From NCBI RefSeq assembly GCF_030814715.1, contig NZ_JAUSVO010000004.1, positions 124,001-188,000 of the forward strand: DNA of 64,000 nt, read 5' to 3'. Below are positions 10,001-51,111 of this stretch, one piece after another. The translations under genes were made by a program, and so were the position numbers. The DNA is from Kaistia dalseonensis. GTDB lineage: Bacteria > Pseudomonadota > Alphaproteobacteria > Rhizobiales > Kaistiaceae. The notes beneath the pieces are model-generated. The model did no database searches. It was not told the origin of the DNA and saw nothing but the letters and a program-made list of their open reading frames with translations. Within the stretch, counting starts at the first letter, position 1, and every line of letters begins with the position of its first letter.

Positions 10001-10960
10001 TCACTCCCGGCGGACGGTGCCGGCCTCGACAAGCCACTGGACGGCCTCATAGACCGCTTCGAGCGAGTTGTAGCGCGGCTTGTAGCCGAGCAGGCGGACC
10101 GCCTTCTCGATCGAGCAGTTGGGGCTGTGGGCGATGTGGTCGAAGGTGGCCTGCGCCAGCTCCGGGCTGTGCAGGCCTTCGAACTCCGGCCATGGCACGA
10201 AGCGGAGCCTGGCTTCGCGGCCGAACCATCCCGCAACGGCCTCCGCATAGCCACAAAGGCTGATGGCGGCCGGCGAGACCGTGTGGAAGGCCTCGCCCTT
10301 CGCCTGGCTCCAATGCGCGATCGCGGCCATGAACATCTGCGCCACGTCGTCGGCATGGACATGGTGGACGGTTTCGAGACCGAAATTGGCGATCGTCACC
10401 TCGCGTTCGGTGGCGAGCGCGGTGAAGATCTCGGGATCGAAATGGCCGGCCGGATTGAGCGGCGCCCAGCCCGGGCCGACAATATGTCCCGGATGGACGA
10501 TGGTGGCGGGAAAGCCCGTGCGGCGGGCATGGTCGAGCAGATAGGCCTCAATCGCCGCCTTCTGGATGCCGTACTCGCCAAAGGGCCGGCGCGGTGCGGT
10601 CTCCAGCGTCGGCACGGTGACGCTGGGGCCGTGCACCCAGATCGTGCCGGTATGCAGGAAGTGCTGCACTTGTCCGTCCAGCGCCTCGACCAGATGGCGG
10701 GCGCTGTCGAGCGTGAAGCAGATCATGTCGATGACAATGTCGGGGCGGAGCGAACGGATCGTTTCGCCGAACGTGCCGGCTGCCTCCTCGGCCACCCGGT
10801 CGACGGCAAGCGTCTCCACCTGCGTCCAGGCGCCGTGCGGTTGATAGGGCGCACGCTGGCCCCGGCTCACATTCACGACGTCGAAACCGGCTTCCACGAG
10901 CCGCGGCACCAGATAGGTCCCGACATGGCCGCTGCCGCCGATGATCACCACCCGCGTCAT
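10001..10960 (-). CDS. NAD-dependent epimerase/dehydratase family protein (extended SDR)
   Basis: The 319-residue protein opens MTRVVIIGGSGHVGTYLVPRL, a classic NAD(P)-binding GxxGxxG motif. It carries the catalytic YxxxK as YGIQK in GEYGIQKAAIEAYLLDH. The remainder (VHPGHIVGPGWAPLNPAG, HHVHADDVAQMFMAAI) is typical of extended short-chain dehydrogenases acting on nucleotide sugars or related substrates. The substrate cannot be named. Start 10960 is chosen for GGGAGG just upstream; the frame is open for 41 more codons without homology. It lies upstream of the TetR gene on the same strand, separated by the operator region, and divergent from the ArsR gene. Confidence 0.88.
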   Translation of the reverse strand: MTRVVIIGGSGHVGTYLVPRLVEAGFDVVNVSRGQRAPYQPHGAWTQVETLAVDRVAEEAAGTFGETIRSLRPDIVIDMICFTLDSARHLVEALDGQVQHFLHTGTIWVHGPSVTVPTLETAPRRPFGEYGIQKAAIEAYLLDHARRTGFPATIVHPGHIVGPGWAPLNPAGHFDPEIFTALATEREVTIANFGLETVHHVHADDVAQMFMAAIAHWSQAKGEAFHTVSPAAISLCGYAEAVAGWFGREARLRFVPWPEFEGLHSPELAQATFDHIAHSPNCSIEKAVRLLGYKPRYNSLEAVYEAVQWLVEAGTVRRE

Positions 10961-11085
10961 TGCATCCTCCCTCAAAACGCTGCGGCGATGGTAGCCGAAG
11001 TCGCGCGGGCTGTCCGGTGCCGGGCTTCGTGGCCGCGTCCTGCGCGCTTCGCCCTGTAGCACGGCCTTGATAGGGGCCGTCAATC

Positions 11086-11439
11086 GTGATACTTAAGCAT
11101 ATGCTTAACCAATCAGCCGTACTCGATCAGGTCTTTCATGCGCTCGCCGATCCGACGCGGCGCACCATCGTCGAGCGGCTGACGCGCGGGCCCGTCTCGG
11201 TCAGCGCGCTGGCCGAGCCGCTTTCCATGTCGCTGCCGGCCGTGCTGCAGCATTTGCAGGTGCTGGAAGCGAGCGGGCTGGTTCGCTCCGAAAAGGTCGG
11301 CCGCGTGCGGACCTGCCGGATCGAGCCGGAGACATTGAAGACGGTGGAGGACTGGGTCGCGGAACGGCGGGCGGTCTGGGAGACCCGGTTCGACCGGCTC
11401 GCCGCTTTCCTCGCCGAGGAAGAGGATCAATCGAAATGA
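11086..11439 (+). CDS. ArsR-family transcriptional regulator
   Basis: Small winged-helix repressor, 117 residues from GTG 11086 or 112 from ATG 11101. The HTH core is FHALADPTRRTIVERLTRGPVSVSALAEPLSMSLPAVLQHLQVLEASGLV. No metal-ligand cysteines are visible, so it belongs to the non-metal ArsR group usually paired with SRPBCC/AHSA1 proteins, exactly the next gene here. The GTG start has AGGGG about 9 nt upstream; the ATG lies in the middle of a 16-bp palindrome (11093-11108) that could be the autoregulatory operator. The start overlaps the likely promoter of the divergent epimerase gene. Confidence 0.92.
   Translation: MILKHMLNQSAVLDQVFHALADPTRRTIVERLTRGPVSVSALAEPLSMSLPAVLQHLQVLEASGLVRSEKVGRVRTCRIEPETLKTVEDWVAERRAVWETRFDRLAAFLAEEEDQSK
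11093..11108. promoter_or_regulatory. 16-bp palindrome at the ArsR gene start (candidate operator)
   Basis: TTAAGCATATGCTTAA is a perfect palindrome centred on 11100/11101, and its ATG is one of the two possible start codons. Position and symmetry suit an autoregulatory ArsR site that would block RNA polymerase or a very short leader. Confidence 0.6.
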
Positions 11440-11450
11440 AGGAGGAGATC

Positions 11451-12347
11451 ATGACGAAACGAACGGCCGAGCACGCGACATTCGTAATCGACCGCGTCTT
11501 CGCCGCGGCCCCGGGGCGCGTCTTCAACGCCTTTGCCGATGAGAAGGCCAAGGCGCGCTGGTTCGGCGGACCGAAGGAGTGGGACCAAGGCGAGCGCTCG
11601 ATGGATTTTCGCGTCGGCGGTCGCGAGGTCAATCGCGGCGGCCCGGCCGGAGGGCCGCAGCATTCATTCGAGGCGCTCTATTGGGACATCGTGCCGAACG
11701 AGCGCATCGTCTACAGCTACGAGATGCATCTCGACGACAGGAAGATCTCGGTCTCGCTCGCCACGATCGAGATGAAGCCGGAAGGCAGCGGCACCCGCCT
11801 CGTCGTCACCGAGCAAGGAGTGTTCCTTGATGGATATGACGACAATTCGAGCCGCGAGCACGGTACGCGCCAACTGATCGAGACGCTCGGGCGGTCCCTG
11901 GAGGAGGATGGTGGCGATGACCAGCACGCCGTCGTGCTGCATCGCATTGTCGATCTGCCGCCGGCCGAGCTGTTCAAGGCGTGGTCCGATCCGGAACGGC
12001 TGAAGAACTGGTGGGGGCCGAACGGCTTCACCAACACCTTCCATGAATATGACCTGCGGCCGGGCGGCGCCTGGCGCTTCGTCATGCACGGTCCAGACGG
12101 CCAGAACTATCCGAACGAGAGCGTCTTCGTCGATGTGGACGAGCCGAAACGGATCGTCTTCGACCATCTGAACGGTCATATTTTCCGCATGACCTTCGCC
12201 CTGACCGATCTCGGCGGCCAGACGGATCTCGAAATGCGCATGAGCTTCCCCACCAAGGAGGACTGCGACGCGATCCGTGCCTTCGTGACGGAGAAGAACG
12301 GCGAAGTTCTCGATCGCCTGGAAGCGGAAATGGCCAGCGCGGGCTGA
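11451..12347 (+). CDS. Tandem AHSA1/SRPBCC domain protein (fusion)
   Basis: A 298-residue protein with two START-like SRPBCC domains in one chain. Domain 1 covers about residues 8-150 (FVIDRVFAAAPGRVFNAFADEKAKARWFGG). Domain 2 covers about 162-295 (VLHRIVDLPPAELFKAWSDPERLKNWWGPNGF). In most genomes these are separate genes downstream of an ArsR regulator. GGAGG at 11441-11445 supports the ATG at 11451; the upstream ATG overlapping the arsR stop is less likely. Such domains bind hydrophobic ligands or act as co-regulators; ligand unknown. Transcription is presumably coupled to and repressed by the ArsR protein. Confidence 0.9.
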   Translation: MTKRTAEHATFVIDRVFAAAPGRVFNAFADEKAKARWFGGPKEWDQGERSMDFRVGGREVNRGGPAGGPQHSFEALYWDIVPNERIVYSYEMHLDDRKISVSLATIEMKPEGSGTRLVVTEQGVFLDGYDDNSSREHGTRQLIETLGRSLEEDGGDDQHAVVLHRIVDLPPAELFKAWSDPERLKNWWGPNGFTNTFHEYDLRPGGAWRFVMHGPDGQNYPNESVFVDVDEPKRIVFDHLNGHIFRMTFALTDLGGQTDLEMRMSFPTKEDCDAIRAFVTEKNGEVLDRLEAEMASAG

Positions 12348-12355
12348 ACCTGTCG

Positions 12356-13633
12356 TCAGATCCGGTCGCGGAGCGCGTACCAGCTCATGCCCGCGACCAG
12401 CGCCGGCCAGCGCAGCAGCTTGCCGCCGGGAAAGCGCGGGCAGGGCAGGGCGGCGAAGCGGTCGAGCTTGCCGGGATCGCCGAGGATCGCCTCGGCGATG
12501 ACCTTGCCGCCGAAGGGCGCCAGTGCCACGCCCTGGCCGGAATAGCCGGATGCCGCATAGACGCCGGTCTTCAGCCGGCGCAGAAAGGGCAGGCGATTGA
12601 CCGTCACGGCGAGCGTGCCACCCCATCCATAATCGATCCGCGCATTGGCGAGCTTCGGATAGATCTTGAGCAGATGGGCGCGGACGAAGGCGACGATATC
12701 GGCCGGGTCTCTGCGCGAATAGGTCTCGCCGCCGCCGAAGAGGATGCGGCCGTCCGGCGTCGGGCGCCAGTAATAGACTACGAAGCGCGAATCCGAGACC
12801 GCCTCGCCGCCGGGAATGAGCCCACCCGGCTCGCCTGCGCCGATCGGCTCGGTCGTCAGGATATAGTTCTTGATCGGCATGGCGCTGGTCTCGGTCTCCT
12901 CGTCTATGCCGTCGAGAAGACCATTGCCGGCGAGAACCACGATGTCGGCCGTGATGCGGCCACGCCCGGTCTCGATGACGGTCGCCTTGCCCTTGTCGAG
13001 GCGGATCGCCCCCGTTCCCTCATGAATGCGCGCGCCGGCCTTCTGCGCCGCGCGGGCGAGACCTTGCGCGAATTTGAGCGGGTGGAGATGGCCGGCGGTG
13101 CGATCGAGCCGCCCGCCATAATAGCCATCGGAGCCGATCATGGCCGGCAGGCGGTCGCGCTCGATCCATTCGGCATGGCTGTAGCCATAATCGACATTGA
13201 GCTTCTCGACATAGTGGCGCTCTTCCGCGACCAGCCTTTGCTTGTGCACGGCCTCGATCAGGCCCGGGCGCCATTCCGCGTCGATGCCGTGCCGCTCGAT
13301 CAGGCTCATCACCAACGCCTTGGATTCCTCGGCGAGGCCCCAGAGCTCATGCGCCGCCGGGCGGCCGAGATGGCGTTCCAGCCAGTCCTGGTCGCGGCGC
13401 TGGCCGGTGTGAAGCTGGCCGCCATTGCGCCCCGATGCGCCCCAGCCGATTTTCTCCGCCTCGATCAGGACGACGTCGATGCCGGCTTCGGCCAGATGCA
13501 GCGCGCAGGAAAGACCCGTAAACCCGCCGCCAATGATCGCGACATGCGCCTTGGCGTCGCCGTCGAGCGGCGGAAATGTCAGGTTCTGGTCGGCGGTCGC
13601 GGCGTACCAGGAGGGAGCGTGCGGCTGGGTCAT
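12356..13633 (-). CDS. puuB: FAD-dependent gamma-glutamylputrescine oxidase (PuuB-like)
   Basis: DAO-family flavoprotein of 425 residues (E. coli PuuB 426). The FAD site is VAIIGGGFTGLSCALHLAEAG near residues 31-51, followed by EAEKIGWGASGRNGGQLHTGQ. The C-terminal FAD contact is ASGYSGQGVALAPFGGKVIAE. It is expected to oxidise the gamma-glutamylated diamine to the aldehyde. Third gene of a minus-strand set with a glutamylpolyamine synthetase and a class III aminotransferase, divergent from potFGHI transport genes, so polyamine catabolism is strongly favoured over other DAO substrates. Confidence 0.88.
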   Translation of the reverse strand: MTQPHAPSWYAATADQNLTFPPLDGDAKAHVAIIGGGFTGLSCALHLAEAGIDVVLIEAEKIGWGASGRNGGQLHTGQRRDQDWLERHLGRPAAHELWGLAEESKALVMSLIERHGIDAEWRPGLIEAVHKQRLVAEERHYVEKLNVDYGYSHAEWIERDRLPAMIGSDGYYGGRLDRTAGHLHPLKFAQGLARAAQKAGARIHEGTGAIRLDKGKATVIETGRGRITADIVVLAGNGLLDGIDEETETSAMPIKNYILTTEPIGAGEPGGLIPGGEAVSDSRFVVYYWRPTPDGRILFGGGETYSRRDPADIVAFVRAHLLKIYPKLANARIDYGWGGTLAVTVNRLPFLRRLKTGVYAASGYSGQGVALAPFGGKVIAEAILGDPGKLDRFAALPCPRFPGGKLLRWPALVAGMSWYALRDRI

Positions 13634-13667
13634 GCCGTAGCGCCGATGAAAGGCTCCGGCCGAACCA

Positions 13668-13703
13668 CCTCCCTCTCCCTTGCAGGGAGGGTTGGGGAGG
13701 GGG
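13668..13703. repeat. Short C/G-rich palindromic intergenic repeat
   Basis: The gap between puuB and the aminotransferase gene holds CCTCCCTCTCCCTTGCAGGG followed by AGGGTTGGGGAGGGGG. CTCCCT (13675-13680) pairs with AGGGAG (13684-13689) across a 3-nt loop. Similar CCCTCTCCC/GGGAGAGG elements occur near 41816-41949. Confidence 0.6.
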
Positions 13704-13727
13704 CCAGAACGAAGGGGGCGATCCGCT

Positions 13728-15125
13728 TCAAATCAAACCCAGCCGCTTCACTTCGGCGTAGGTGTCGTCCAGCGTCGTCTTCGCGATCGCCAGAAGCTGG
13801 TCCGCCTCGTCATGAGAGAGCGTGAGTGGCGGGGAGAGGATCAGCGAATCCCGCACTGCGCGCATGACGAGCCCGTTCTTGAACGAGAAATCGCGCGCGA
13901 TCGTGCCGACCTTGCCCGTATCCGGGAATTTCTGCTGCCGCGACGGCTTGTTCGGTACCAGTTCTAGCGCGCCCATCAGCCCGGTCATGCGGGCTTCGCC
14001 CACCAGCGGATGCTCGCCGAGCGCCTTCCAGCCGGCTTGCAGATAGGGTCCGATATCGTCGCGGACGCGGTCGACCAGCTTCTCATCCTCGATGATGCGC
14101 AGGTTTTCGAGCGCCGCCGCAGCGGCGACCGGATGCGCGCCATAGGTGAAGCCATGATGGAATTCGCCGCCCGGCCCGATCAGCACATCGGAGACCTTGT
14201 CGGAGACCATGACGCCGCCAATCGGCAGATAGCCTGATGAAAGCCCCTTGGCGATCGGCATCAGGTCGGCGGCGATGCCGAAGGTCTCGGAGCCGAACCA
14301 GTTGCCGGTGCGGCCGAAGCCGGTGATGACCTCGTCGGCAACGAGCAGGATCTCGCGATCCTTCAGGATGCGCGCGATCTCGGGCCAATAGGTGGAGGGC
14401 GGAATGATGACGCCGCCGGCGCCCTGGATCGGCTCGGCGATGAAGGCGCCGATATTCTCCTCTCCGATCGCCTCGATCGCCTTTTCGAGCTCGCGCGCAG
14501 CCTGCACGCCGAATTCCTCTGGAGTCGCGTCGCCGCCCTCGCCGAACCAGTAGGGCTGAGCGATATGGTGGATGCCGGGGATCGGCAGGCCGCCCTGGCT
14601 GTGCATCGACTTCATGCCGCCAAGGCTGGCGCCGCCCATGGTTGAGCCGTGATAGGCGTTGTTGCGCGCGATGATGACCGACTTGCCCGGCTTGCCGAGG
14701 CTCGCCCAATAATGGCGGACCATGCGGATGACGGTGTCGTTCGCCTCCGAGCCCGAGCCGACATAGAAGACATGGTTGAACTGCGGCGGCGCGAGGCGCG
14801 CGAGCGTTTCCGAAAGCGCGATGGCCGGCGGGTGGGTCGTCTTGAAGAAGGTGTTGTAATAGGAGAGATCGGCCATCTGGCGCTGGATGGCGTCGGCGAT
14901 CTCCTTGCGGCCGTGACCGATATTGACGCACCAGAGGCCGGCCATGCCGTCGAGGATGCGATTACCGTCGGAATCGTAGATCCACGACCCCTCGGCCCTG
15001 ACGATGACGCGGCTGCCCTCGGCATTGAGCGCCTTCATATCCGAGAAGGCGTGGATGTGATGCGCCGCATCGCGTGCGCGATAATCGGCCGTCAGATTGG
15101 AGAGTTTGGTCAATTTGGCAGCCAC
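13728..15125 (-). CDS. spuC: Class III aminotransferase, putrescine-pyruvate type (SpuC-like)
   Basis: PLP enzyme transferring the amino group of putrescine (or related omega-amines) to pyruvate. Conserved features: SEGNRILDGMAGLWC-like segment (SDGNRILDGMAGLWCVNIGHG), GSEANDTVIRMVRHYW, YHGSTMGGASLGG, cofactor Asp in LLVADEVITGFGRTG and the Schiff-base Lys in PIAKGLSSGYLP. The frame opens at ATG 15155, but that ATG lies inside an intergenic palindromic repeat. I prefer GTG 15125, which gives an N-terminus of family length (465 residues); its ribosome site is unusually close. Middle gene of the putative puuA-spuC-puuB operon. Confidence 0.9.
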   Translation of the reverse strand: MAAKLTKLSNLTADYRARDAAHHIHAFSDMKALNAEGSRVIVRAEGSWIYDSDGNRILDGMAGLWCVNIGHGRKEIADAIQRQMADLSYYNTFFKTTHPPAIALSETLARLAPPQFNHVFYVGSGSEANDTVIRMVRHYWASLGKPGKSVIIARNNAYHGSTMGGASLGGMKSMHSQGGLPIPGIHHIAQPYWFGEGGDATPEEFGVQAARELEKAIEAIGEENIGAFIAEPIQGAGGVIIPPSTYWPEIARILKDREILLVADEVITGFGRTGNWFGSETFGIAADLMPIAKGLSSGYLPIGGVMVSDKVSDVLIGPGGEFHHGFTYGAHPVAAAAALENLRIIEDEKLVDRVRDDIGPYLQAGWKALGEHPLVGEARMTGLMGALELVPNKPSRQQKFPDTGKVGTIARDFSFKNGLVMRAVRDSLILSPPLTLSHDEADQLLAIAKTTLDDTYAEVKRLGLI

Positions 15126-45493: not shown

Positions 45494-46528
45494 ATGCGTG
45501 CGCTCGTCCTTGAAGAAAAGCTGAAGCTGTCGCTGCGCGACATCGACCTGCCGCTCGATCTCGGACCGCGCGACGTGAAGATCGCCATCCACACGGTCGG
45601 CGTCTGCGGTTCCGACGTGCATTATTACACGCATGGCCGCATCGGGCCCTTCGTCGTCAACGCGCCGATGGTGCTGGGCCATGAGGCCGCCGGCACGGTC
45701 GTTGAGATCGGTGCCGAGGTGAAGTCGCTGAAAGTCGGCGACCGCGTCTGCATGGAGCCCGGCATCCCCGATCTCACATCGAAGGCGTCAAAGCTCGGCA
45801 TCTACAATGTCGATCCGAGCGTGACATTCTGGGCGACGCCGCCGGTCCATGGTTGCCTGACGCCCTATGTCGTTTTCCCCGAAGCCTTCACCTACAAGCT
45901 GCCCGAGAATGTCTCCTTCGCCGAAGGCGCCATGGTCGAGCCGTTCGCGATCGGCATGCAGGCGGCCGCCAAGGCTCGGATTGTTCCAGGCGATACGGCG
46001 CTGGTGATCGGCGCCGGCCCGATCGGCATCATGGTGGCGCTGGCGGCGCTGGCTGGCGGCTGCAGCCGCGTCTATGTCTCCGATCTCGTCAATGAGAAGC
46101 TCGCCATTGCGGGCCAGTATGACGGCATCGTCCCGGTCAACATCCGTGAGACCGATCTGAAGGCCCGTATCGCTGCCGATACGGACGATTGGGGCGTCGA
46201 CATCGTCTTCGAAGCCTCGGGCAGCCCGCGCGCCTATGACGGCATCTTCAATTTTGTCCGTCCAGGCGGCACGATCGTCTTCGTCGGCCTGCCGGTCGAG
46301 CCCATCGCGCTGGATATCGTCGCCGCGTCGGCGAAGGAAGTGAAGATGGAGACGGTGTTTCGCTACGCCAATGTCTTCGACCGCGCGCTGTCGCTGATCG
46401 CATCGGGCAAGGTCGACCTGAAGCCGCTGATCACCGGCGTCTACAGCTTCGAGGACTCGATCGCTGCCTTCGAGCGCGCGGCATCAGGCAATCCCAACGA
46501 CGTCAAGCTGCAGATCACCCTCGGGTAG
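45494..46528 (+). CDS. Zinc-type medium-chain dehydrogenase (xylitol/sorbitol dehydrogenase-like)
   Basis: NAD-dependent polyol dehydrogenase, 344 residues. Catalytic zinc motifs: [28 protein letters not shown] and, at the substrate domain, [20 protein letters not shown]. The Rossmann motif is [19 protein letters not shown]. The structural-zinc loop ([21 protein letters not shown]) lacks all four cysteines, as in some bacterial xylitol/sorbitol dehydrogenases. GGAGG at 45481-45485 supports ATG 45494. It resembles D-xylulose reductase best; the exact polyol is unknown and no sugar transporter adjoins. Confidence 0.9.
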
Positions 46529-46556: not shown

Positions 46557-47354
46557 TTAGCTGGGGCTCGCCGCGCGTGGGATAGTGTTGAGTGTCGTCG
46601 CACCTTCCCCTGCGGTACCTGAAGATCCACCCGACCTGCCGCTTCGGAGAGCCAAGGCCAGAACAGCCGCGATGTCGACGCCAGGAATGGATGCGACGGC
46701 GCGCGCGATCGCGGCCGCTGCCGAAGGAAGTGCCGCAATCACGGCACTGGCGATTTCGGCAGCGCGCGGCGGGAACGCCGCAGCGATTGCCCTCGCAATT
46801 TCTGCTGCCAACCAAGGATTGGCCGTCGCGGCCGTTGCGGCAATAGCTGCGACATAATCAGGATAGAGCTTTGCCAGCGCGACGAGCGCGTCGAGATCAT
46901 CCGATGCGGCAATCGCCTGGTCAGCTATCTCCAAAGGAAGGTCGAACCGGGTTTCAACCGGTTCCTGTGAGAGCGAGGCCAACGCGCGATTGATTTCGGG
47001 CGCCGCTGCTGGAATGGCATATGCGGATGCCGAAGCCACTTCACTCATGGCCGCAGGAACCGCCGCTACAACGGCAGCGGCAATCCTTGCTGCGGCACCC
47101 GGATTGGAGATCGCTGCAGCCGCGGTGATAGGGCCGATAAAGCCGGGATTGAGAACAGCAATTGCTGCTACCGCCTCAGGATCGCCAGCAGAGTCGACGA
47201 CCTGAATGGCGAGCGGTTCCGGCATATCCGAGATCACCCCGAGATCGGCGGCTTTCGCTGACTCCGAGATCAAGGAGCATGGGGCAACGATAATCGTAGC
47301 ATAGATAGTTCGCGTCAAAATATTGTGTATTTGTAAAAACACTGCGCGCACCAT
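46557..47354 (-). CDS. Secreted alanine-rich 15-residue-repeat protein B (unrecognised family)
   Basis: A 265-residue protein, no family recognised. An N-terminal hydrophobic segment ends SAKA/AD (about residue 35), a plausible signal peptide. After it, prolines at 59, 70, 85, 100 and 115, then 165, 180, 195, 210 and 224 are spaced 11, 15, 15, 15, (50), 15, 15, 15, 14. Each unit looks like P-x-A-A-x-x-I-A-x-A-V-A-x-A-x, for example PGAAARIAAAVVAAV. The 50-residue break holds a charged insert (EPVETRFDLPLEIADQ). A Gly/Ser tail ends AASPS. It is a paralogue of the gene at 48011. The ATG has no clear ribosome site, so the start, or even expression, is uncertain. Confidence 0.7.
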   Translation of the reverse strand: MVRAVFLQIHNILTRTIYATIIVAPCSLISESAKAADLGVISDMPEPLAIQVVDSAGDPEAVAAIAVLNPGFIGPITAAAAISNPGAAARIAAAVVAAVPAAMSEVASASAYAIPAAAPEINRALASLSQEPVETRFDLPLEIADQAIAASDDLDALVALAKLYPDYVAAIAATAATANPWLAAEIARAIAAAFPPRAAEIASAVIAALPSAAAAIARAVASIPGVDIAAVLALALRSGRSGGSSGTAGEGATTLNTIPRAASPS

Positions 47355-48010
47355 TCGGCTTAAGATCAGAAGCTATTGATTGCTGATGATCAATATTCTG
47401 GGCCATTCTGAGATGAGCGCAGTTACGGCAGGCCGGGGGTCCTGCGCTGCACATCGTCTAGCATGCAGCATGCTGCATTGCGACGTCTGGATTCCGCTAC
47501 GGCAGTCTGTCAGGTCAAGTTCCGCGCTAGGGGATCGTCGGTGGCGCATTCGATATCCGTGATGGATCCGATTGGGACTGTTCCCGGCGCGGCCGTACGA
47601 CTTAGATTCCTACATTGATATAATGTATAGATTAATATATCTATAAATTATAACATATAATTTTCTCTGTTAACAGAAACAAATTATACTAGATGAGTGG
47701 ATTGAGACGGAGATATGCTTCTATTGGAAAAATTTACGTTATGAAATTGGAATTATTTCCAGGATAGAAGCTAAGTCGACCTGTTGATCGTACGCAAATC
47801 TGGGGGTGACTGTAATTCTGGCAATGCAGGAAAGAGGGCTAGCCCCCTGTCTGCCACCGCAGCTGGCGGCTATCACGGTACAATCAAAATCCCGTGATTT
47901 CGTCCGACGTGGCCCAAAAAATGGCGGTCAGGCCGACGGGGCGGTCTTCAGAAGAAATCGACCTGCCGTTGGGGTGCCGGCAGGTTCTGCGCTGAGCGTC
48001 GGGTCAGTGG
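47355..48010. other. AT-rich, palindrome-dense spacer between the two alanine-rich genes
   Basis: A 656-bp stretch with no gene I can support. About 47600-47760 is far more AT-rich than the rest of the window. It contains TATAGAT/ATCTATA arms (47626-47632, 47639-47645), TCTGTTAACAGA (47666-47677) and, further left, ATGCAGCATGCTGCAT (47463-47478), all palindromic. The right part returns to high GC with open but unconvincing frames. It may hold the promoter of gene B and looks like foreign or decayed DNA. Confidence 0.6.
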
Positions 48011-48652
48011 TTAGCTCGGGCTTGCGGGTCTTCCAGTGATGATATCGCCGCCGCCGTCGCCGCCCGTATTGTCATTGTTGCTGCGATTATTGGCGTTGCT
48101 GGCATTTCTTGCGTCGGAAGCCGTCTTGCCGGCCGCCGCGACTGCCGCGACGTTGACGCCGCGAACGGAACTGACAGCCGCCACGATGGCCGCGATGTCG
48201 ACGCCTGGAATGGAGCCGAGGGCCGCGACGATGGCGGCAGCCGCACCGGGCACCGCTTCCGCCACGGCCTTGGCGATCGCCGCAGCCAGGGACGGGTACA
48301 AGGATGCCACCGCCTTGGCTATGGCTGCCGCGGCATCGGGAACAGCCAAGGCTACGGCCTTGGCGATGGCGACGGCTGCTGCGGGCACCGCCGACGCGAC
48401 TGACGCGGCAATATCAGCGGCAGCGCCGGGATTGGCCAGAGCGGCCGCGGCCGCGATGGATGCCGCCTGTTCCGGATTGCCAGCGGCAAGCGAAGCGACC
48501 GCATCCGGATCTTTGGCAGCATTGGCTACGGCTTGCGCAAGCGTCGGTGACAGCTCCTGCGCATAGGCAACGGTCGGTATCAAGATAGTTGCAGAGGCCA
48601 ATAGCGAAAAGCAGATGGCCAGCGAAACCAAGGTCTTGCGAATATGCCTCAT
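48011..48652 (-). CDS. Secreted alanine-rich 15-residue-repeat protein A (unrecognised family)
   Basis: A 213-residue protein from ATG 48652; no family recognised. Signal peptide RKTLVSLAICFSLLASATIL... is cleaved after AYA (about residue 32). The mature part is built of proline-headed units with prolines at 49, 60, 75, 90, 105, 120, 135 and 149: spacing 11, 15 five times, then 14. Typical units are PAAAVAIAKAVALAV, PDAAAAIAKAVASLY and PSLAAAIAKAVAEAV. A PGVDIAAIVAAVSSV unit and an Asn/Gly/Asp-rich tail follow, ending RPASPS. Each unit could form a short amphipathic helix. A GAGG site precedes the ATG across a C8 run (8 G on plus). An in-frame ATG at 48667 is an alternative. Confidence 0.78.
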   Translation of the reverse strand: MRHIRKTLVSLAICFSLLASATILIPTVAYAQELSPTLAQAVANAAKDPDAVASLAAGNPEQAASIAAAAALANPGAAADIAASVASAVPAAAVAIAKAVALAVPDAAAAIAKAVASLYPSLAAAIAKAVAEAVPGAAAAIVAALGSIPGVDIAAIVAAVSSVRGVNVAAVAAAGKTASDARNASNANNRSNNDNTGGDGGGDIITGRPASPS

Positions 48653-48653
48653 C

Positions 48654-48661
48654 GGGGGGGG
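48654..48661. repeat. G8 homopolymer between ribosome site and start codon of protein A gene
   Basis: Eight consecutive G on the plus strand (C8 in the gene's sense) separate GAGG from ATG 48652. From the alternative ATG 48667 the run would lie in codons 2-5. Slippage would change Shine-Dalgarno spacing or reading frame. Confidence 0.85.
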
Positions 48662-48667
48662 CCTCAT

Positions 48668-49255
48668 CTAGCAGCGCTTTTCAAAAAATGAACTTCAGCC
48701 CAATTTATCAACACCGCCCTGAGGGGTGCATGAAATAACCTGCCACCGTACACTAGCGTTATGCCGTATAGCACAACTCATGTTGCGGCGCGAAGCGAAA
48801 CCTTGATTCCGCTGCCAGAATCTCGCGGCATTGTCAGGTCTCTTTTGATATCCCGGTAGAATTCACGTCAAACTGTCAGAGTCTGAAATATTCCGGGATC
48901 GGCCGGAGGCGATTGCTTGGAGTAACGCGCAAGCGGTCAACCCGATGGATTGCAGCCCGCACAGATGATAAATGCTTGTTCGAATGAATGAATGAAGCAT
49001 AATTCATAGTATTGCGCTATGAATTATGAACAACCCAGAGGCGGTGACCCCGCGGAAAGATGTGATTCAGTTTTTTCGGCGGCCGGACCGCGGTCGCGCA
49101 GCAAGTGCCACGGCAATCGAGGCGGTGGCACTGCAGGCCCATGGGCGAGTAGTGGTGCGAGCTACGGCTACAGCGCGCAGGACGGCCTTGACCCGCAGGG
49201 TGCCGGCGCAGCCAGCACCCAATCTGTCGATCCCGCCCTACCGGCAGGCCGTCTG
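48668..49255. other. Non-coding region upstream of protein A gene
   Basis: A 588-bp gap between the alanine-rich gene and the SDR gene. It should carry the promoter for protein A, reading leftward. Contents seen: the 31-bp dyad at 48998-49028, a GAAT tetranucleotide run (about 48982-48995), and an otherwise ordinary mixed-composition sequence. The frames open across 49019-49255 run into the SDR gene on the opposite strand and are not supported. Confidence 0.5.
48998..49028. repeat. 31-bp perfect dyad with 12-bp arms and 7-bp centre
   Basis: CATAATTCATAG (48998-49009), centre TATTGCG, CTATGAATTATG (49017-49028). The arms are perfectly complementary. There is no T run and the arms are AT-rich, so a terminator is unlikely. 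The geometry is like a regulator site or a tyrosine-recombinase core site. Confidence 0.85.
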
Positions 49256-49990
49256 TCAGTTGACCCAGCCGCCATCGATGATGTGCATCTGGCCGGTCGT
49301 GTAGGTGGCGGTGGCGAGGTAGATGGCGAGGTCGGCGATTTCTTCCGGGGTACCGATGCGCCCGATCGGCTGGCGGGCGATGAAGGCGGCGCGAGCGGCT
49401 TCATAGTCGCCCTGGGCCTTGAGTCGCTCCTGCAGGGAGGGGCTTTCGACCGTGCCCGGGCAGATTCCATTGCAGCGGATGCCCTTGGTCACATAATCGG
49501 CCGCGACCGACTTGGTGAGGCCGACCGTAGCGGCCTTGGTCACGCCATAGGCAAAGCGGTTCGGCACGCCCTTGATGCTGCCGGCGACGGAACAGATGTT
49601 GACGATCGAGCCGTCGCCCTGCGCCAGCATGCCGGGCAGCGCGGCCCTGATCGTGCGCCACATCGATTTGACGTTGAGGTCATAGGCGAAGTCGAGATCG
49701 GCCTCTGTCGCCTGCTCGATCGTGCCGGCATGGACGATGCCCGCGCAATTGAACAGCACGTCGATCGTACCGATCTCGGCGACGAGCGCGTCGACATCTT
49801 CGGCCTTCAACACGTTGAGCGGACGGGTCGTGATCCGGTCGACACCGGTCAGTTCGGCAAGCTTGGCTTCATTGACGTCCGTAGCCCAGACCGTTGCGCC
49901 GGCGGCCGCGGCCTGCTCGGCGATCGCGCGTCCGATGCCCTGTGCCGCCGCCGTGACCAGCGCGACCTTGCCTTCGAGCTTTCCGCTCAT
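49256..49990 (-). CDS. SDR-family dehydrogenase, DHRS6/2-keto-3-deoxy-L-fuconate dehydrogenase-like
   Basis: A 244-residue classical short-chain dehydrogenase. NAD motif VTAAAQGIGRAIAEQAAAAGATVWATDVNE, catalytic Ser in VNICSVAGSIKGVPNRF and YxxxK in YGVTKAATVGLTKSVAADY. CPGTVESPSLQERLKAQGD and C-terminal IIDGGWVN closely resemble DHRS6 and the bacterial 2-keto-3-deoxy-L-fuconate dehydrogenases. Start 49990 follows AAGGAAG by 5 nt. It lies 11 bp downstream of an enolase-superfamily sugar-acid dehydratase, whose product it would oxidise. Substrate assignment to L-fuconate or a related deoxy-sugar acid is inference. Confidence 0.9.
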   Translation of the reverse strand: MSGKLEGKVALVTAAAQGIGRAIAEQAAAAGATVWATDVNEAKLAELTGVDRITTRPLNVLKAEDVDALVAEIGTIDVLFNCAGIVHAGTIEQATEADLDFAYDLNVKSMWRTIRAALPGMLAQGDGSIVNICSVAGSIKGVPNRFAYGVTKAATVGLTKSVAADYVTKGIRCNGICPGTVESPSLQERLKAQGDYEAARAAFIARQPIGRIGTPEEIADLAIYLATATYTTGQMHIIDGGWVN

Positions 49991-50001
49991 CGTCACTTCC
50001 T

Positions 50002-51111
50002 TCACTTTCCAACCGCAAATGTGGAGCCATCGACCGTCTGGCGGTCGATGGCCTCGAAATCCCAGGCAATGCCGAGCCCTGGTTCGGCGCTCGGCACGGC
50101 ATGGCCATCCTCGATGGTCATTCCCTTCGTCGTGAGGCTGTCCAACTGCGGGATATATTCAACCCAGCGCGCATTGGGCACGGCCGAACAGAGGGCGACG
50201 TGGAGTTCCATGAGGAAATGCGGGCAGACCGAAACGTTGAACGTCTCGGCGAGGTGCGCGACCTTGAGCCAGGGGGTGATGCCGCCGATCCGCGCGACGT
50301 CGACCTGCACGATGGAGCAGGCGCGCCGCTGCAGATAGTCGCGGAAATGCGGTGGTGAATAGAGGCTCTCGCCGACGGCGATCGGGATCGATGTCGAAGC
50401 CGACAGGCGGATATGGCCGTCAACATCGTCGGCCGTCAGCGGCTCTTCCAGCCAGCCTATATCGACGGCTTCATAATGGCGGGCGCGCCGGATCGCCTCG
50501 TCGACGGAAAAGGCCTGGTTGGCGTCGGTGAAGATCTCGAAGCCGGCGCCGACGGCGTCGCGCACGGCGGTGAGCCGGGCCACATCCTCATGGATCGGCC
50601 GGCCGACCTTCATCTTGGCGCCGCCGAAGCCGCTTTCCTTGGCCTTGAGCGTGTCCTCGACGATCGCCGCGGTGGGCAGGTGCAACCAGCCCCCTTCGGT
50701 GGTGTAGAGGCGGATCTTCTCCTGCGCGCCGCCGGCCAGAACATGCAGCGGCAGGGCCGCCTTGCGCGCCTTCAGGTCCCACAGCGCCGTATCGATCGCG
50801 GCGAGCGCCAGCGAGGTGATGGCGCCGACCGAGGTGGCGTGGGTGAGGAACAGCAGGTCGCGCCAGATCTGCTCGATCATGCCGGCTTCGCGGCCGATCA
50901 GGGCCGGTGCCAGGGTCCGCTCGATCAGCGACATGATCGCCGGCCCGCCGGTCCCGATCGTGTAGCTGTAGCCGGTGCCGACCGCGCCATCAGCGTCGAT
51001 GATGCGGATGATTGGCGTTTCCTGGCTGACGAAGGACTGGATCGCGTCGACCCGCTTCACCTTCGGCTTCAGATCGACCATCAACCCTTCGACGCGAACG
51101 ATTTTCGCCAT
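50002..51111 (-). CDS. Enolase-superfamily sugar-acid dehydratase (mandelate racemase subgroup)
   Basis: A 369-residue (beta/alpha)7-beta barrel enzyme. Catalytic residues are clearly placed: KxK at K166/K168 (GAKMKVG), metal ligands D196 (TDAN), E222 (WLEEP) and E248 (VGES), and the Asp-His dyad D271/H298 (DVARIGGIT, CPHF). These numbers nearly match mandelate racemase. The family abstracts an alpha proton from acid sugars; neighbours point to a deoxy-sugar acid such as fuconate or rhamnonate. GGAGG just upstream supports ATG 51111. First gene of a minus-strand pair with the SDR, divergent from the IclR regulator. Confidence 0.9.
   Translation of the reverse strand: MAKIVRVEGLMVDLKPKVKRVDAIQSFVSQETPIIRIIDADGAVGTGYSYTIGTGGPAIMSLIERTLAPALIGREAGMIEQIWRDLLFLTHATSVGAITSLALAAIDTALWDLKARKAALPLHVLAGGAQEKIRLYTTEGGWLHLPTAAIVEDTLKAKESGFGGAKMKVGRPIHEDVARLTAVRDAVGAGFEIFTDANQAFSVDEAIRRARHYEAVDIGWLEEPLTADDVDGHIRLSASTSIPIAVGESLYSPPHFRDYLQRRACSIVQVDVARIGGITPWLKVAHLAETFNVSVCPHFLMELHVALCSAVPNARWVEYIPQLDSLTTKGMTIEDGHAVPSAEPGLGIAWDFEAIDRQTVDGSTFAVGK

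Follow-up and report, generated by a model that had tools for sequence, protein, structure and literature searches.

Short C-terminal signals such as PEP-CTERM, GlyGly-CTERM and MYXO-CTERM are entry points to whole sorting systems. In the excerpted text of Haft 2006 (PMC1569441), the PEP-CTERM/EpsH system is described as a short conserved C-terminal signature carried by diverse signal-peptide proteins and tied to exopolysaccharide genes. Excerpts of two further papers describe the composite OPX/β-barrel translocon, in which an OPX protein and an outer-membrane barrel are encoded together (Schwabe 2022, PMC9601211), and the promonan cluster of Sphingomonas sp. LM7, where the hypothetical gene prmB stands immediately before the barrel gene prmC and the OPX gene prmD (PMC11340318). 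Here we describe two genes, A and B, in a window of 64,000 nucleotides of Kaistia dalseonensis (contig NZ_JAUSVO010000004.1, positions 124,001 to 188,000; the window is the whole stretch of DNA that was analysed). Both encode alanine-rich repeat proteins with a signal-like start and the C-terminal tetrapeptide ASPS. They look like the visible part of a broader set of exported proteins that end in a free tetrapeptide and are encoded near an OPX/barrel translocon.

Repeat register, predicted fold and paralogy of A and B

The two genes and their parts are the following, GC3 being the G+C fraction at third codon positions and ORF an open reading frame.

48011..48667, minus strand: gene A, 218 residues, a putatively exported alanine-rich protein with 15-residue repeats (from the ORF and its translation)
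48209..48508, minus strand: residues 54-153 of A, an 11-residue unit, five 15-residue units headed by proline and a final 14-residue unit; predicted α-solenoid
48014..48025, minus strand: C-terminal tetrapeptide ASPS of A (translation and motif set)
46557..47354, minus strand: gene B, 265 residues, a diverged paralogue of A with a GC3 of 0.58
47001..47180, minus strand: residues 59-118 of B, an 11-residue unit, three 15-residue units and the start of a degenerate unit
46863..47000, minus strand: residues 119-164 of B, an insert that contains charged residues and interrupts the proline register
46686..46862, minus strand: residues 165-223 of B, a second run of 15-15-15-14 units, then PGVDIAA
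46560..46571, minus strand: C-terminal tetrapeptide ASPS of B (translation and motif set)

Gene A probably starts at its second ATG, at 48652, the end given in an earlier sequence-only reading of this DNA, which leaves a protein of 213 residues. That reading had described two ORFs ending in ASPS with a locked proline register, and translation and shuffling bear it out. Prolines are spaced 11-15-15-15-15-15-14 in A and 11-15-15-15-(50)-15-15-15-14 in B. The residues of the repeat region were shuffled in 20000 trials and the pairs of prolines at spacing 15 were counted. The 5 pairs of A were reached in 0/20000 shuffles (a fraction of 0.00005 when any spacing from 5 to 30 was allowed). For the 6 pairs of B the fraction was 0.0003, rising to 0.004 under the same freedom of spacing. 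The unit pattern P-x-x-A-A-x-I-A-x-x-h-A-x-x-h recurs at spacing 15 in both proteins, which places both in the repeat set. Each has a signal-peptide-like start, whose end, judged by eye, lies between AYA and QE in A and between AKA and A in B, and each closes with a polar tail ending in ASPS, devoid of hydrophobic helix or basic cluster. A and B probably leave the cytoplasm by the Sec route, to act in the envelope or outside the cell.

The AlphaFold model of A has a mean predicted local distance difference test score of 80.3, with block means of 90-97 across residues 41-190. It contains helices at residues 54-63, 65-78, 80-93, 95-108, 110-123, 125-138 and 140-150, and a chain of short helices also appeared in a single-sequence model of a relative from Thalassospiraceae, as anticipated by the earlier suggestion of a chain of short amphipathic helices. 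The model of A confidently predicts an α-solenoid; one helix per 15-residue unit is predicted for A and for this one relative, and a stack of antiparallel short helices, as in α-solenoid proteins, would be expected. The repeat looks like a compact natural solenoid of one helix per 15 residues, with designed proteins as its best structural matches. Armadillo and HEAT-like chains stand low in the VIA list of structural matches, a list by which no family is excluded. Foldseek gave no match at E ≤ 0.001 among viral models and a PDB sequence search with A gave none. In Pfam and NCBIfam nothing exceeded the curated cut-offs for A, and B reached only sub-cut-off matches (NapD at 19.5 bits with a cut-off of 28, the others likewise below theirs). 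The view that no family has this layout thus holds for these curated models, but the proteins do have relatives, in at least two proteobacterial classes.

A and B are indeed paralogous. BLASTP aligned their N-terminal unit with E = 1e-6 and their last units with PGVDIAA with E = 4e-4, and the best stretch between the coding sequences covers 57 nucleotides at 84% (E = 1e-11). The earlier reading also had the similarity run past the stop codons, as a sign of tandem duplication, which the DNA does not support. The shared AGCTAACCAC is a serine codon and the stop (AGCTAA) followed by four more bases, CCAC, and no significant match was found in the 300 bp downstream (best E 0.45) or the 400 bp upstream (0.80). 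Since the flanks of A and B do not align, they give no sign of a tandem duplication. Such an event is plausible from the position of the genes, and their divergence would make it old: the proportions of nonsynonymous and synonymous differences (pN and pS) are 0.41 and 0.69 between A and B, and similar (0.41-0.44 and 0.67-0.71) between A and its relatives in the genus. GC3 is 0.70 in A and 0.58 in B, as against 0.76-0.87 in ten neighbouring genes, which points to weak constraint or foreign origin, the more so for B. The intergenic DNA at 47355-48010 and 48668-49255 is GC-poor as well (0.50 and 0.55), and together with the low GC3 a foreign insert is possible.

The terminus and gene neighbourhood of the relatives

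Terminal serine-proline motifs were found to be enriched at the exact C-terminus of the whole ORF set. SP[SNTGF] closes 26/3347 complete ORFs, about five of which look like antisense or chance frames of the six-frame set, as compared with 2-13 ORFs at each of 29 other offsets and about 5 expected. Among the repeat proteins, ASPS ends A, B, L016 and L026/L074, and other relatives end in ASPG, ASPF, VSPN, ASDS, ASAN, ASSS or GSPS. Serine occupies position -3 in 15/24 complete ORFs that match either of two repeat models (4057 ORFs examined), for which the binomial P is 1e-8 given the serine content of the tails themselves, each ORF being counted singly despite kinship. The sequences suggest a recurrent terminus of roughly [AV]-S-[PDG]-[SN]-COOH.

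Some of these proteins are encoded within exopolysaccharide-export loci. In the Thalassospiraceae locus L039, genes for a BBP2_2 barrel (PF10082), an OPX protein (Poly_export/SLBB), Wzc (Wzz/GNVR/AAA_31) and Wzy_C come after the repeat gene. When the barrel, OPX, Wzc and Wzy proteins of L039 were used as blastp queries on 23 loci (L038, L043 and L044 being left out), at least one of the four was found near the repeat gene in nine (L037, L039 itself as the source of the queries, L070, L072, L073, L074, L075, L080 and L081). In L074 a protein of 1451 residues with TPR, Sel1 and CHAT domains (10264-14616, plus strand) follows a tagged FecR-repeat gene.

The converse approach started from the barrel. 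PF10082 was found in 78/289 genomes of the window's class, judged by gene content to be Alphaproteobacteria, and in 38/229 of the class of genome G830, a third proteobacterial class. We counted 99 barrel loci (30 and 39 from the scan of the window's class and the fetched set, 30 from the class of G830; other listed barrels stayed uncounted), using six-frame ORFs of 100 residues or more, so that both denominators contain spurious frames. [AV]S[PDG][SN]$ closes 8/155 same-strand ORFs ending just upstream of a barrel and 2/894 others (P = 7e-6), and a looser motif 11/155 and 4/894 (P = 4e-7), where the tagged 'others' include L205, L237 and one ORF of L142 that likewise lie near a barrel. The 30 loci from the class of G830 contain five ORFs ending in SP[SNTGF], and all five precede the barrel on its own strand; the SP form was already in view when these loci were searched, and the D form was known from L047. 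Among 16 enlarged loci, mostly chosen for a tag, barrel and OPX genes are present in 16/16 and an ORF tagged by the loose pattern in 13/16.

The tagged upstream proteins differ in architecture. Some are small and Gly/Ala-rich (L214, L227, L230). A conserved DFG...GFER domain, with GFER about 10 residues after DFG, is found in those of L190, L197 and L201, the last ending in PSPN, and is shared by the protein just upstream of the barrel in L204; it may be a carbohydrate-binding module, and the two such proteins tested had no Pfam match above cut-off. Proline-headed units occur in the proteins encoded upstream of the barrel in L148 and L167, of which the latter ends in ISPS and the former otherwise. 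A Wzy-like membrane protein in the tagged locus L248 (14815-16437, minus strand) itself ends in AVSPS. A FecR domain (PF04773) precedes the repeats or the tail in some relatives, and two FecR proteins devoid of repeats end in QASPN, their genes immediately preceding those for barrel, OPX and Wzc. FecR was considered as the carrier of the tag and rejected, as most of 30 FecR loci lack the terminus and two repeat-free proteins have it. For nine relatives NCBIfam gave sub-cut-off matches only, among them FecR-like surface-protein models. In three FecR-like proteins from the class of genome G668 (L068, L058, L078) the 15-residue units are headed by Gly-Gly or Ala-Gly, not proline, and the ends are GSPS or SPSPS.

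Within the genus, clear relatives of A were found in 2/13 congeners (G004 and G005), giving 3 clear carriers in 14. E values were 3e-66 and 3e-56 with a four-row alignment that includes both matches, and 5e-13 and 6e-7 with A alone. G006 gave two weaker matches (E 0.0015 and 0.0020) and another part of the K. dalseonensis genome, G000, gave one (0.0030); none of the three was counted. In the window, A and B are flanked by an alcohol-dehydrogenase-like gene (end at 46528) and an SDR-like gene (49256-50005), amid genes that resemble sugar-catabolism genes (names read from the translations); the congener relatives sit between the same two genes and share the signal-like start and polar tail. Rfam (gathering cut-off) and tRNA scans of the window gave no match.

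A 45-residue repeat model that matches A, B and relatives hit, at E ≤ 1e-5, 5/385 genomes of the class and 7/398 of the phylum, the genome of A and B being included in both counts. A 90-residue model hit, at E ≤ 1e-6, 3/15 genomes in the order of G336 and 9/48 in the class of G668, which we take as Magnetococcia because the Magnetococcales contig L037 and G619, a genome of this class, encode the same protein. Against named genome contigs, the alignment of A, B and congeners found nothing at tblastn E ≤ 1e-3, and the repeat alignment found nine loci: one in Magnetococcales, an order of Magnetococcia, and one in Thalassospiraceae and seven in Pelagibacteraceae (SAR11), both alphaproteobacterial families. 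The Thalassospiraceae protein of L039 aligns with A at 38% over 185 residues (E = 2e-10). The repeat stretch had no tblastn match in plasmids. Alphaproteobacteria and Magnetococcia both contain relatives.

The Pelagibacteraceae contigs (L041, L042, L045 and, cut, L038, L040, L043, L044) encode giant proteins of many proline-headed units. Three are complete, with 2958-3176 residues, very many 15-residue units and other C-termini. Met/Gly/Pro-rich stretches come after the units, and L041 also has glycine-rich repeats, presumably calcium-binding. In L028 (208-2502, plus strand) degenerate proline-headed units are fused to the C-terminus of a transporter-like protein, MFS-like by eye.

Possible roles of the tetrapeptide

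We tentatively place A and B in this tagged exported set as orphans with a role in the envelope or matrix, and put the chances of this view slightly short of even. Having no barrel or OPX neighbours, they are treated as relatives of the translocon-linked set and not as members of such loci. A bolder and rather doubtful extension is that exported proteins working with the OPX/BBP2_2-barrel translocon are recognised or sorted by an undescribed, exosortase-independent signal, [AV]-S-[PDG]-[SN]-COOH, which would span Alphaproteobacteria, Magnetococcia and the third class, with A and B as orphan clients that carry an unusually compact solenoid. On the first view A and B would each consist of a signal peptide, an N-terminal helical cap, the α-solenoid, a flexible polar linker and the free ASPS terminus. 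A proline would open each 15-residue unit, which would form a single helix no longer than 14 residues. The solenoid body would most likely be a scaffold in contact with polysaccharide or with itself, and a partner in the export machinery would most likely read the free C-terminus as a short ligand; binding to the partner would keep the protein at the translocon or route it out with the polymer. Because the loci of A and B lie away from export genes and their congeners have SC for SP, we infer the function of A and B (export, localisation, partner and effect on polysaccharide) from distant relatives, and their role in their own genome would follow by analogy. If the tetrapeptide is such a signal, a four-residue tag without membrane helix would give direct access to the pairing of accessory proteins with exopolysaccharide export, and would offer a starting point for the 'hypothetical' genes of exopolysaccharide-export loci.

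Several observations weigh against our tentative view of A and B. The motif is missing from 147/155 ORFs upstream of barrels in its strict form and from 144/155 in its loose form. None of the four export genes was found in 14/23 loci (L069, L071, L076-L079, L082-L084, the window, L040-L042 and L045), a number of them being short contigs or coding for giant proteins. In particular, the 64 kb window around A and B and the congener loci L082 and L083 gave no match to barrel, OPX, Wzc or Wzy, and no convincing tagged neighbour was seen at the OPX/Wzc locus (L127, L128), the lone BBP2_2 locus (L170) or the FecR locus (L138) of the same genome. The surface role raised by the sequence-only reading is backed by some relatives, which adjoin exopolysaccharide loci, but not by the location of A and B. 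Serine is absent from position -3 in 9/24 repeat-matching ORFs: the three SAR11 giants, the large L077 and L079, the transporter-like fusion L028, L018, L015 and L148. The terminus drifts within the genus, as the congener relatives end in AASCN and SASCS. The motif was moreover widened after the data had been seen, the SP and D forms being drawn from repeat proteins and the G form added only after the class-of-G830 loci, and the statistics ignore sequence kinship. Finally, deletion of prmB in Sphingomonas LM7 gave no colony phenotype in the excerpted text of PMC11340318.

The same drift to AASCN and SASCS, the orphan location, the rarity in the genus and the low GC3, especially of B, would also be expected if A and B were stand-alone secreted matrix or surface proteins (a helical polymer or an adhesin), in which ASPS, without function here, would descend from an exopolysaccharide-linked ancestor or arise as a by-product of Ser/Pro-rich tails. 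We consider this possible but on the whole doubtful: ASPS has survived in both paralogues despite their divergence, and across all ORFs the motif is commoner at the very end than at adjacent offsets.

An improbable variant makes [AV]SP[SN]-COOH a true secretion signal, read by the OPX/barrel translocon or another outer-membrane route through which the protein leaves. Repeat, FecR, DFG...GFER and small Gly/Ala-rich proteins, all signal-peptide-like, do share the terminus beside the translocon, but the AVSPS end of the L248 membrane protein fits docking better than secretion.

Alanine-rich antisense frames are present at 46585-46857 (plus strand) and 48036-48566 (plus strand), and with GC3 below that of the neighbours they might suggest that A and B are low-complexity reading frames of GC-rich repeats without protein function. 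We find this very improbable, as relatives with a signal-like start and a polar tail lie at this position in congeners, the fold is confidently predicted and homologues exist in other families. The ratio dN/dS, which is 0.30-0.36 for A against its congener relatives and against B, also speaks against it, though dS is near saturation. An ice-binding or membrane-active helix array is scarcely credible: alanine-rich amphipathic helices bear a superficial likeness to such proteins, but the model of A is a compact repeat array and some relatives lie in exopolysaccharide loci, neither of which excludes it.

Comparison with sorting and export systems

In an open-access literature collection we recognised no description of the repeat, the tag or their link. 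FecR domain proteins (PF04773) overlap with the set, as some relatives carry FecR, whereas A and B have no FecR match. The tagged set also resembles PEP-CTERM/exosortase sorting as given in the excerpt cited above, with a short C-terminal signature on varied exported proteins and a link to exopolysaccharide genes. The logic is alike but the anatomy is not, since A and B have polar tails that close with four residues at the very C-terminus and show neither hydrophobic helix nor basic residues. Exosortase (PF09721) was not found in 21/26 genomes tested, the window's own (G000) among them, some of the assemblies being incomplete. By gene position alone, prmB of the excerpted promonan cluster stands where several tagged genes stand here. 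The genes beside tagged relatives, a short OPX and a separate barrel, resemble the composite translocon as described in the excerpts of PMC9601211.
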